From NCBI GenBank assembly GCA_013153145.1, contig JAADEY010000002.1, positions 1-53,027 of the forward strand: a stretch of 53,027 nt of DNA, read 5' to 3'. The notes under the pieces were generated by a model. The model was not told where the DNA came from and made no database searches. It saw only the letters and a list, made by a program, of their open reading frames with translations. Made by a program: the position numbers and the translations under genes. Shown here piece by piece: positions 21,596 through 26,286 of this stretch (position 1 is the stretch's first letter; each line of letters starts with the position of its first letter). Source of the DNA: Thermoproteota archaeon. Lineage in GTDB: Archaea; Thermoproteota; Thermoprotei_A; Sulfolobales; Pyrodictiaceae.

Positions 21596-21859
21596 TTGGC
21601 GAGCGGTATAATCAACTTCATCACCGACCTCACAGTCAAGATAACGACGGCTGCGTGGGGCCTCTTCCTACTGACATGGAGTGTCGGCTGGCTGATAAGG
21701 GGCGCGCCGATACCGGTGCTTAGGTTCAAGAGGGTTGGCCAGAGCCTCATCGAGGACGCCGTCTGGGCTGCATTTGGACTCGCAATCGGAACCTCAGTCT
21801 TCGCATTGATAGCGTATATCGCCAAGCTCTTCGGCGCGACCCCGCCTAAGCCCCCCTAG
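21596..21859 (+). CDS. cedA1: CedA1-like two-helix pilin (VirB2/TrbC-type)
   Basis: 87 aa from TTG 21596, preceded by GGTGGCCAGGGG; an open frame extends back to 21509 but its first 29 residues look non-coding. The protein is two hydrophobic helices (about 14-34 and 52-78) joined by a short basic turn, RGAPIPVLRFKR, and ends in a Pro-rich tail. No cleavable signal peptide and no class III site. This matches the known plan of the Ced and Ted pilins, homologous to bacterial conjugative VirB2/TrbC pilins whose positively charged loop lines the lumen. The next gene is CedA. Assignment rests on topology, turn motif and context. Confidence 0.72.
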   Translation: MASGIINFITDLTVKITTAAWGLFLLTWSVGWLIRGAPIPVLRFKRVGQSLIEDAVWAAFGLAIGTSVFALIAYIAKLFGATPPKPP

Positions 21860-21899
21860 GCATGGGGCATGCACTGCAGTTGTTGTGAGGTAGCGGCGT

Positions 21900-23363
21900 A
21901 TGGCGGCGCCGACAGTAACCGAGATGACGATCGGCGACCTCCTCTACGCCGCGTTTCTGACGGCGATACTGACGTACCATATCGGTATACTCTTGTACGC
22001 AGTCCCCTACCCTAGTAGGTCTTTGAAACGCTGGGGCTACATACTGGTTAACGACGGGATCATGGCCGCCTTCCTCATAGCGCTCTATGGAGTTGTGGTC
22101 AAGATAGCTGACTATGTCCTGGCCGCTGCGGGGCTCAGCGTCAACAAGGGGATAACGATGATCAATGAGGCTTTGAATGCGGCTGCCATGGTTACGCTCG
22201 TTGCAAAGACTGTTGCAACTATAATCCCGTATCCCTTCAGCGGTGTTGTGAATAGCTTCCTAAGCCCCGTCATAATGTTTGCCAACGGTGTACTTGTCTC
22301 ATCCCTGCTAATGCTTGTAATAGGTGCTCTCGGCATCGAGGGGAAGCCCCTACTGGTGGCTGCCTCGGCGCTCCTCTATGCCCTACCCTTTAGGGCTGGG
22401 AGGAGTATTGGTGCGTCACTACTTGCATTCTCTATTGTGGCCCCGGTGGCTATAGCATTGTTTCCGTCCTGGTACTCGCTCTTCAATATACATGTCTATC
22501 TCGGGTACACGGAGAAGCCCTACCAGATGATAACCGTGCTGAAGCCCGTGGCCGGCGTCTGGGGGAATGTGACTGGGAGCTATGGTGTTATGAGTAGGGG
22601 CGTGCTAGTCTTCAGCGATGAGTCCGGTGGCAGGTTTGAGTTTAGGACGAGTATGGAGGGCGCCTACTATGCTCCGGAGACGCAGAGCGGCCTCCCAATG
22701 TATGTGAAGCTCCGTGTGTACGCGGAGCATCTGGGGCAAAGAATCCGTCTCGACCCCTCAGTGGTCGAGATACCCTTGACTAGTGAGGTTGATTTGAGTA
22801 AGCCTGGGATAGAGTATAGGCAGGACTTTAGGGCTGTTGACACTGTCTTCTACTCCTGCTACTTCAATGTAGTTACCTCACTCTGCCCCATAATAGGGGT
22901 TGACAAGGAGGGGAAGACGCTGATAGTCAAGTGTGTGCCGATATACAATGAGGCGTACGTGAATGTGTCGATGATACCCGATGCGACTGGGGACATCTAC
23001 ATGGCTGTCGGCGGGGGTAAGATCGTCGGCGGTATAAGGTGGTATAAGAAGGAGTGGAGGGGTATACCCGTTGAGGTTGACACATTCACCGTGCTTAGGA
23101 GCCCCAACCATGCATACATATCGATAAGCTTGACGCCGCAGCTTAAGGGTGACTGTAGGAGATATGTGCCGAGGATAAGTACGGGTAACTACATCAAGAC
23201 GTTGATTGACAGGATTGGGAGGATTCTCATGGACATGGTCTGGAACTATGTGAAGCTGATGGTTGCAATGGTAAGCTATGTGGCCGTGGTTGCTGCAAGC
23301 GTCTATGGCCTGGCGAGGGTGCTGGGTGCAACGTACCCGAGGCTCGTGGTGAGCCTGCCATGA
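21900..23363 (+). CDS. cedA: CedA-like polytopic DNA-import channel protein
   Basis: 487 aa, ATG start with GAGGT upstream. Six or so membrane helices occupy ~12-190, followed by a large probably extracytoplasmic domain of ~191-445 with four cysteines (C320, C328, C345, C419), and a final helix ~448-475. CedA of the crenarchaeal Ced system is the polytopic protein needed for DNA uptake and has been likened to VirB6. Helix pairs carry turns like that of the neighbouring pilin: PYPSRSLKRWG near 36-46, PYPFSG near 110-115 and a weaker LPFRAGRS near 162-169. Its stop overlaps the next small gene's ATG (CATGA). Confidence 0.75.
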   Translation: MAAPTVTEMTIGDLLYAAFLTAILTYHIGILLYAVPYPSRSLKRWGYILVNDGIMAAFLIALYGVVVKIADYVLAAAGLSVNKGITMINEALNAAAMVTLVAKTVATIIPYPFSGVVNSFLSPVIMFANGVLVSSLLMLVIGALGIEGKPLLVAASALLYALPFRAGRSIGASLLAFSIVAPVAIALFPSWYSLFNIHVYLGYTEKPYQMITVLKPVAGVWGNVTGSYGVMSRGVLVFSDESGGRFEFRTSMEGAYYAPETQSGLPMYVKLRVYAEHLGQRIRLDPSVVEIPLTSEVDLSKPGIEYRQDFRAVDTVFYSCYFNVVTSLCPIIGVDKEGKTLIVKCVPIYNEAYVNVSMIPDATGDIYMAVGGGKIVGGIRWYKKEWRGIPVEVDTFTVLRSPNHAYISISLTPQLKGDCRRYVPRISTGNYIKTLIDRIGRILMDMVWNYVKLMVAMVSYVAVVAASVYGLARVLGATYPRLVVSLP

Positions 23364-23536
23364 CGGGGCGGGAGCTCAAGCTTAGGGATACACTAGTGCT
23401 CGCAGCGGTACTAGAGGTTGCAATGATAATGCTTGGTGCGGGGAGCGGGGCGAGTGTGACGATCCTCGTACTTTTGCTCGCCTCCCTCCTACTCACACTG
23501 CTACTTGCATTCTACGCGTGGAGGGCAGGCCTGTGA
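23360..23536 (+). CDS. 58-aa two-helix membrane protein (VirB3/CedA2-like candidate)
   Basis: ATG at 23360 overlaps the cedA stop (ATGA), and its stop TGA at 23534-23536 overlaps the preferred GTG start of the next ATPase gene (GTGA). The product starts MTGRELKLRDTLVL and has two hydrophobic stretches (about 11-26 and 32-52) around a GAGSGAS turn, ending FYAWRAGL. Stop-start overlaps on both sides strongly suggest a real, translationally coupled gene. In conjugation systems a small two-helix VirB3 lies beside, or is fused to, VirB4; Sulfolobus Ced also has a small CedA2. Either match is inference from size, topology and position. Confidence 0.65.
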   Translation: MTGRELKLRDTLVLAAVLEVAMIMLGAGSGASVTILVLLLASLLLTLLLAFYAWRAGL

Positions 23537-25092
23537 GGCTCTTCGGCATCCTCTCGAGGGCCGCCAGGGTTAGGGGTGATGGCTGCTTCACCCGTGTAAA
23601 GGGCCTATGCTACGCCCTACTGGAGGTCGAGAACCCTGAGTGTATAGCGCGGCTGCTCTATGGAGAGATGAATATCCTCGAGTTCCTCATAGGGAGCTGC
23701 AATATGCGTGGACTGCTCCTATACATGGAGCCCCTTGATAGAAGCAAGGCTATGAGGAGCCTTGAGGCAAAGATGATGACATACCGTGTCATACTTGAGC
23801 GCAACCCGGACGACAAGACTGCCGAGGCTAGGCTCGAGATACTATCAAGGATGTATAAGAGGGTGGCGGAGGGCTACACGCCTCTAAAGGCTAGGTATGT
23901 CATAGTCATAGCAGACCCCGAGCCCTGCAGCGAGATAGAGAGGAGACTTGAGACGGCGAAACGCACCCTCGAGATCCATGGCTGCAGGTGCAGGGTTGTG
24001 TGCAGCGACCTCAACTCAGTACTGTCGAGGAGGGCTGAGGGCCCCCTCGACTCAATGACAGCCATAGATCCCCTAGTGACTATGTCGAGGAGGATTAGGA
24101 GCTACAGGGAGGGCGTATTCATAGGGAGAGATATGGATACTGGGCTGCCGATCTACCTCAACCTATGGGATGAGAGGAGGGGGGCTAACCACGTGTTAAT
24201 CGTCGGGCCGACGGGTAAGGGTAAGACAACACTGCTGGCCACCCTACTCGTGAGGCTCTATGCCCTGGACTCAACCCCGCTCACCGCTATAGACCCGAAG
24301 GGCGACCTCATAGACTCGTTGAAGAGCATCGGTGTAGCAGAGACCGTGGTCGACACCGGCATGGTTGCATCGATCCTTGGCCAGCTCTACAGAGAGGGTA
24401 CACCCATAAGCATGATCCTCGAGGCCGGGGTCGAGCTGACGGGGGCTGAGCGTAGGGCAATCGACGCCCTCCTCTTCTGCAAGGATACGACAGACCCCTA
24501 CGCCTCCTCGGCCGCCGTAAAGCTCCGCGTCATGGGGCTACCCGTGGAGAAGCTCTGCAGGGAACCAGGAGAACCCATCCCCCTGGGCGGGGGTAGGCTG
24601 GAAGCGTTCGACCTCAGCAGCCTAAGCAACCCCGTTAAGAACATCGCCGCCTCCGGCCTGCTAGCACTCATACATGCCATGTACTCGTCTGGATCCAGGA
24701 GGCCTAGGGGGCTTAGAAGGGTCATAGTTGTTGACGAGGCGTGGAGGGCCATGAAGATGCCGAAGGAGCTCCTCGAGAGACTAGTGAAGGAGTTTAGGAG
24801 CTACGGTGTCTCACTGGTCCTTGCCTCGCAGGATCCGGGCGACATACCCGACACCGCCTGGAACAACGCATCCCTCGTAGTAGTCTTCGGCTCGCACGAT
24901 AAGTCGTTCATAGAGCAGGTCGGCAGGGTGCTGAGGCTCACGGAGAGGGATCTTGAGAGGCTAAGATGGCTCCACATAGGCGAGGCCGCGTTAAAGCTTG
25001 CAGACGACCCCCGGCCGGTCTTCGTGAGGGTGGAGCCCGAGCCAGAAATAATTAAAGCAGGCACAGCTTCGCAGCATGTCCACGGGGTCTAG
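23533..25092 (+). CDS. cedB: CedB-like VirB4/HerA-type ATPase
   Basis: 519 aa. I prefer GTG 23533, overlapping the previous stop and preceded by GGAGGG; GTG 23518 is the longer option. The N-terminal ~190 residues, with several cysteines (for example HGCRCRVVC), resemble the VirB4/TraC adapter region. The motor shows Walker A GPTGKGKTT near 225-233, AIDPKGDL near 253-260, Walker B VIVVDEAWRAM near 400 and LASQDPGDI near 430. VirB4/HerA ATPases energise pilus assembly and DNA passage. The gene sits third behind the pilin in a tight operon. Its stop abuts the uL2 start codon with no spacing. Confidence 0.78.
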   Translation: MRLFGILSRAARVRGDGCFTRVKGLCYALLEVENPECIARLLYGEMNILEFLIGSCNMRGLLLYMEPLDRSKAMRSLEAKMMTYRVILERNPDDKTAEARLEILSRMYKRVAEGYTPLKARYVIVIADPEPCSEIERRLETAKRTLEIHGCRCRVVCSDLNSVLSRRAEGPLDSMTAIDPLVTMSRRIRSYREGVFIGRDMDTGLPIYLNLWDERRGANHVLIVGPTGKGKTTLLATLLVRLYALDSTPLTAIDPKGDLIDSLKSIGVAETVVDTGMVASILGQLYREGTPISMILEAGVELTGAERRAIDALLFCKDTTDPYASSAAVKLRVMGLPVEKLCREPGEPIPLGGGRLEAFDLSSLSNPVKNIAASGLLALIHAMYSSGSRRPRGLRRVIVVDEAWRAMKMPKELLERLVKEFRSYGVSLVLASQDPGDIPDTAWNNASLVVVFGSHDKSFIEQVGRVLRLTERDLERLRWLHIGEAALKLADDPRPVFVRVEPEPEIIKAGTASQHVHGV

Positions 25093-25815: not shown

Positions 25816-26286
25816 GTGAGCGCCAGGCAGTCGTACACGGCGGAGGACGAGATAAAGAAGTGGCTGGAGAGCCTGCCATCGGAGTGGAAGAAGTTCAGGT
25901 ATCGTGGCTACACCCTAGAGGAGCTCATAAGGATGCCTATGGACAAGTTCGTGGAGCTCCTACCGGCGAGGCAGAGGAGGAGCCTCCTACGCGGCCTAAC
26001 AGACCCGCAGCGCAAACTCCTACGCAGGATAAGGAAGGCGAGGCAGAAGATACTCAAAGGCGGGAGGGCCGTCGTCAAGACCCATGTAAGGGACATGATA
26101 ATACTGCCGGAGATGATAGGGCTCACGATAGCAGTCTACAACGGCAAGGAGTTCGTCCCGGTGAGGATAACGCCGGAGATGATAGGCCACTACCTGGGAG
26201 AGTTCAGCCCGACATGCAGGCAGGTAAGGCACAGCGAGCCGGGACTGAAGGCGACGCGCAGCAGCCTACACATAGCATTGAAGTAA
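25816..26286 (+). CDS. rps19: 30S ribosomal protein uS19
   Basis: 156 aa, GTG start with GAGGGGG upstream. The archaeal-type N-terminal extension ([30 protein letters not shown]) precedes the S19 core [26 protein letters not shown] and [10 protein letters not shown]. It binds the head of the small subunit. Follows uL2 in the usual L2-S19 order but away from uL22. Convergent with the VWA gene, with 2 bases between stops. Confidence 0.97.

Follow-up and report, generated by a model that had tools for sequence, protein, structure and literature searches.

The window, a stretch of 53,027 nucleotides from a heat-loving Thermoproteota archaeon, carries a chromosomal Ced operon, a type IV secretion-like system for DNA import, whose genes encode a pilin (cedA1), a channel protein (cedA), a CedA2-like protein and an ATPase (cedB), all on the forward strand. 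The pilin gene cedA1 (positions 21596-21859), recognized by phmmer and NCBIfam, encodes 87 residues and begins with a TTG codon (M1 = TTG at 21596). It is followed by cedA (21900-23363), which encodes a VirB6-like channel protein of 487 residues; by a 58-residue open reading frame for the two-helix CedA2-like protein (23360-23536), which overlaps both of its neighbours; and by cedB (23518-25092), the gene of a VirB4/HerA-like ATPase (NCBIfam DNA_import_CedB, E = 2.2e-40; VirB4_CagE, E = 2.2e-9). Homologues of CedA are found in 176 of the 229 genomes of the class, and homologues of the pilin in 177. Pilin and cedA genes are adjacent except in family f6, where they lie far apart on the chromosome (G119: L335, L336; G118: L337).

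Several features of the gene layout deserve mention in their own right. A small two-helix open reading frame (48-75 residues) follows cedA, often overlapping its stop codon, in at least 37 of 64 loci (L122-L201), and so holds the position that VirB3 has ahead of VirB4; CedA2 had previously been called not conserved. An identification of CedA2 with VirB3 was rejected, as a Pfam VirB3 search of CedA2 gave no match. At the other end of the operon, the stop codon of cedB abuts the next open reading frame (25092/25093), which is uL2-like by eye and is followed by a uS19-like frame at 25816; at this junction DNA-import and ribosomal protein genes may sit on one transcript. A Ced locus of archaeal type also occurs in a metagenome-assembled genome labelled Nitratiruptor (Campylobacterota; L148, JALWCE010000049.1), most likely on a misbinned contig.

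The 87-residue frame encodes CedA1, the pilin of the Ced system; it forms a hairpin of two helices and is predicted from its sequence to assemble into a pilus. It matches the pilus of Aeropyrum pernix (8dfu) with an E-value of 5.9e-26 (phmmer), and clears the NCBIfam Ced_CedA1 equivalog cut-off (116.6 bits versus 100). Between its two helices lies the turn GAPIPVLRFKRVG (pilin residues 36-48; 21701-21739), directly followed by LIEDAVWAAFGLAI; residues G30, G35, P37, P39, G47, E52 and D53 are invariant in 29 homologues.

AlphaFold models the full-length CedA with a pLDDT of 90.5 as six helices, a beta ectodomain and a C-terminal helix, with helical segments at residues 11-34, 40-61/63-77, 81-108, 111-147, 149-160, 168-186, 188-201 and, last, 433-474. 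The protein thus has the six or seven membrane helices of a CedA channel, and its gene adjoins those of the pilin and CedB (AlphaFold, order of open reading frames). It matches the NCBIfam Ced_CedA model, which has 259 positions and is similar in length to the short CedA of Sulfolobales, over residues 10-200 with 95.5 bits (E = 3.7e-27) against an equivalog cut-off of 330, and is therefore filed as a CedA-family homologue rather than an equivalog. In CedA of this lineage a beta-sandwich ectodomain of about 200 residues (22545-23153; AlphaFold strands 220-415) separates helix 6 from the final helix. VIA matched the full-length protein only to beta sandwiches, with Z up to 5.2, and since these ectodomain matches dominated the fold search, the N-domain (residues 1-203) was also folded separately (pLDDT 95).

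The earlier note had aligned, by eye, the pilin turn and the helix after it with the first hairpin of CedA, and this alignment is borne out. Helices 1-2 of CedA (residues 11-77; 21930-22130) enclose the turn PYPSRSLKRWG (36-46; 22005-22037), after which ILVNDGIMAAFLIAL begins at residue 48. With BLASTP nearly the whole pilin aligns to CedA residues 6-73, with 21 identities in 68 positions (31%), one gap and an E-value of 1e-7; the local score of 87 compares with a mean of 28.9 and a maximum of 58 over 2000 window shuffles of the pilin. When each family is represented by a profile of about 110 sequences, the HHalign probability for the pilin and helices 1-2 is 98% (E = 6e-14 to 6e-15; score 69-74). 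The highest score among 162 control windows, cut from alignments of SecY, antiporters and MFS proteins in the same order, is 14. Residues G29, P36, P38 and K43 of CedA are invariant in 70 of 70 homologues and align with pilin G30, P37, P39 and K44, and D52 (69 of 70) aligns with the invariant pilin D53.

The relation is general across the family. A profile built from CedA alone (A3) ranked 8dfu first among 177,635 PDB sequences (E = 6.2e-10), and a CedA-only profile of the N-domain (A4), run over 300 Thermoproteota genomes, recovered the pilin as a second, distinct gene in each of the 44 CedA-bearing genomes of the order, as counted from the result table. These pilins matched at about 6e-7 to 7e-14 (that of the window at 8.4e-13) and were mostly encoded directly upstream of cedA. 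The NCBIfam models for CedA and the pilin, which were built independently, cross-match in both directions at about 1e-7. Convergence of two membrane helices around a positively charged cytoplasmic turn, of which some of the common residues (P, G, KR) are indeed typical, has next to no chance of explaining a similarity that spans both helices in a single register in every genome examined and that scores some distance beyond any membrane-protein window of the same order (69-74 against at most 14). We regard it as practically certain that the pilin and helices 1-2 of CedA are homologous. It follows from this homology that one gene arose by copying the other or part of it, and the hairpin was fused ahead of a larger VirB6-like channel.

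The predicted structure agrees with the sequences in fold and register. Foldseek superposes the CedA N-domain on 8dfu over 66 columns (rmsd 2.8, 35% identity), and 8dfu is the only match with probability 1.00 among the best 50 in the PDB; its E-value (0.56) falls short of significance, as E-values for such short hairpins usually do. VIA likewise places residues 4-78 of the CedA model on residues 4-80 of an 8dfu chain (Z 7.5), the identity ranging from 28 to 35% across the two programs; this Z is middling for helices, so the register and the identity weigh more than the score. For the N-domain as a whole, the first Foldseek match is a VirB6 chain (7o3v_H), though at E = 0.25. VIA matches the VirB6 chains of 7o3v, 8rt9 and 8rtd with Z of 6.6-6.9 over up to 183 residues (CedA residues 8-199), for example 8rt9_F at Z 6.8 over 181 residues with an rmsd of 7.5, among unrelated helical bundles; that a fold is missing from the VIA lists carries no weight as evidence. 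This match is consistent with the published relation of CedA to VirB6, and taken alone is a weak and not decisive indication. Searches with the TrbL Pfam model found no match in the genome of the window, and only sub-threshold matches over 250 Thermoproteota.

The link between pore and pilus that the earlier note proposed is right, but it had already been published: the homology of CedA1 to the N-terminus of CedA, and that of VirB2 to VirB6, the latter at lower significance, were reported by Beltran et al. 2023 (PMC9905601). Our analysis, which drew on many genomes and on explicit controls, confirms the common ancestry of a pilus subunit and the channel from which it grows. The Ced system of Sulfolobales and Aeropyrum pernix has the same pilin family, the same gene order (pilin, channel, ATPase) and the same homology (PMC9905601); it differs in that CedA of the window has 487 residues and a beta ectodomain, for which the Sulfolobales (f9) CedA frames of about 255-300 residues are too short. 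Bacterial VirB2/VirB6 (R388 TrwI, 7o3v, 8rt9) resembles the Ced system of the window in that VirB6 chains are the top Foldseek match of the CedA N-domain, and differs in having no sequence-level match to CedA of the window and a Foldseek E-value that is not significant.

CedA-like channels with an adjoining pilin are also found in Ted-like loci (L328, L331, L341-L356), in family f38 (L330, L332, L367-L373) and in families f24/f28 (L326, L327). The pilin of f38 matches the first hairpin of its own channel with an HHalign score of 33.7 (86%), against 8-12 for any other pilin, and the Ted pilin matches its own with 23.8 (29%), above controls; on iteration, a model of TedC picks up TedA at 1e-30 to 1e-6. 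Comparison of these sequences indicates that pilin-channel homology recurs in Ted and in a third archaeal lineage, which extends the reach of the relation beyond Ced. Ted of Thermoproteales (TedC pilin, TedA, TedB) is thus alike in having a pilin beside a CedA-like channel with a homologous first hairpin, and unlike in that the similarity is at profile level only, the turn is shorter, and TedC has a signal peptide (Beltran 2023, PMC9905601). For the pilins of Ced, Ted and f38, the match to the cognate channel is about as good as, or better than, the match to pilins of other systems; this does not hold for f24/f28, whose pilin scores 14.8 against its own channel and 20.0 against the Ced pilin.

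Besides the first turn, the earlier note had pointed to similar turns in CedA at about residues 110 and 162, and had read the protein as a tandem fusion of pilin-like hairpins; all four motif locations (the pilin, and CedA 36, 110 and 162) are present in the sequence. The turn at 162 is the better conserved of the two later ones. Helices 5-6 (149-186; 22344-22457) consist of a short helix, the turn LPFRAGRS (162-169; 22383-22406) and a second helix, and in 70 homologues P163 and the nearby G171 are invariant and R168 is always R or K. With HHalign, repeated with CedA segments set by motif, helices 5-6 score 20.6-22.1 against helices 1-2 (probability 30-43%), above all 162 control windows, and the consensus alignment pairs GvLiyaLPIP..KrWg..Li with GilLysiPFR..R.aGa.LI. 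Their resemblance to the pilin itself is slight, with a score of 14.3 that equals the best control (14.3) and a probability of about 2%. The hairpin is strongly conserved across four systems (Ced-Ted 94%, Ced-KoA 96%), and helices 5-6 would thus seem to be an old conserved core element with a possible kinship to the first hairpin.

One alternative reading is that only helices 5-6 share an ancestor with helices 1-2 and with the pilin, whereas helices 3-4 do not. The score above controls and the conservation across four systems speak for it; yet the HHalign probability is only 30-43%, and the common features could have arisen by convergence in any positively charged turn on the cytoplasmic side with a glycine that opens the next helix, so that we consider it unlikely, if by no means far-fetched. 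Somewhat less probable still is a broader history, in which an internal duplication of a hairpin related to the pilin (closely in helices 1-2, remotely in helices 5-6) enlarged the channel, the first copy still serving as an integral first layer of the pilus and the turns of pilin and channel evolving together within each archaeal system. A search of the open-access literature, which misses most subscription journals, yielded no publication that describes an internal repeat in either CedA or VirB6.

A different alternative concerns the pilins, which could more than once have originated from the channel of their own system, or have been converted by it, each pairing with its cognate hairpin. 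It draws on the far better match of the f38 pilin to its own channel than to other pilins (33.7 versus 8-12), and on a first tree of the hairpins, by which the grouping of all pilins in one clade was rejected (AU p = 0.0007). This rejection disappears when the turn columns are removed (p = 0.45) or another alignment is used (p = 0.62), in a tree of about 70 columns with long branches; its loss without the turn columns places the cognate signal of pilin and channel in the turn. This signal is explained equally well by a turn that co-evolves with a partner common to both proteins, and the f24/f28 pilin is not best matched by its own channel (14.8 versus 20.0). Since two changes of data remove the rejection, pilin polyphyly is not claimed, and repeated derivation appears to us rather improbable.

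The original proposal of a tandem fusion of three pilin-like hairpins fares worse. Helices 3-4 (81-147; 22140-22340) show no detectable relation in HHalign either to the pilin or to helices 1-2 (probability below 1%, scores within or below the controls), and their turn PYPFSG (110-115; 22227-22244) is not conserved in the family: among 70 homologues the proline at 110 is mostly replaced by S, and the one at 112 is kept in 13. On sequence comparison this turn is private to CedA of the window and a few relatives, and the part of the proposal that concerned helices 3-4 fails. For helices 5-6 the proposal holds insofar as their similarity to helices 1-2 exceeds every control window, and both hairpins have a glycine seven residues before the proline and a second helix that opens with [KR]xxGxx[LIV]; over four systems, moreover, pairs of helices 1-2 or pilin with helices 5-6 somewhat outscore those with helices 3-4 (mean 12.1 versus 8.4; the pairs are not independent). 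It does not hold for the pilin, which matches helices 5-6 no better than the best control, and within Ted, f38 and KoA helices 1-2 and 5-6 compare at background (9.8, 11.1 and 11.6). Helix 5 is also half as long as helix 1 (12 versus 24 residues in AlphaFold). A fusion of three hairpins is accordingly very improbable, and beyond its first hairpin CedA (helices 3-7 and the ectodomain) does not appear to be a series of hairpins of the pilin type, although helices 5-6 may be an ancient and strongly diverged relative of helices 1-2. Helix 7 was considered as a pilin relative on a single-sequence score of 43 (p = 0.008), but was set aside at a profile probability below 1%.

The explanation that we favour, and hold to be very probable as a whole, is that the window encodes a Ced operon in which helices 1-2 of CedA are a pilin-homologous hairpin, which may act as a mimic of a tethered pilin within the channel. 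In the bacterial system, all 50 top pairs in the co-evolution of VirB2 with VirB6 fall in VirB6 helix 1, mutations in or near this helix lowered conjugation, and a VirB6 pentamer was proposed as the base of the R388 pilus (Mace et al. 2022, PMC9259494). VirB6 helix 1 corresponds to the CedA helix that is homologous to the pilin; co-evolution together with homology makes a tethered pilin the simplest reading of helices 1-2, although co-evolution between two homologous families may be inflated by homology itself. Within Ced, moreover, the first turn of the pilin and that of its cognate channel have one loop length and one motif, PIPxxxxKRxG. The hairpin would then behave in the membrane as a tethered pilin, on which membrane pilins would pack as they do on each other; a ring of such hairpins would be both the recruitment site and the first template layer of the pilus, and CedB would feed pilins into the pilus on this ring. 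We hypothesize tentatively that the mimic recruits or templates pilins in this manner, which seems quite possible; the Ced pathway of assembly may differ from that of bacterial VirB6, because Ced imports DNA. That the VirB6 helix held from co-evolution to recruit the pilin is the very helix related to it offers a simple and testable idea of how a pilus starts.

Among the relatives of CedA is CedE, a CedA paralogue of Saccharolobus, whose NCBIfam model is matched by both CedA (2e-17) and the pilin (1.5e-7) of the window; CedE differs in having five helices and is described as Saccharolobus-specific (PMC11868833). Two consecutive genes for CedA-like channels follow the pilin in L327 (780-4497; 296 and about 800 residues) and in L326, and in f38 (L330, L367-L373) and some loci of the Ted order a second protein of 490-640 residues matches the TedA model at 1e-17 to 1e-5. 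Channel pairs of the CedE kind may therefore be widespread.
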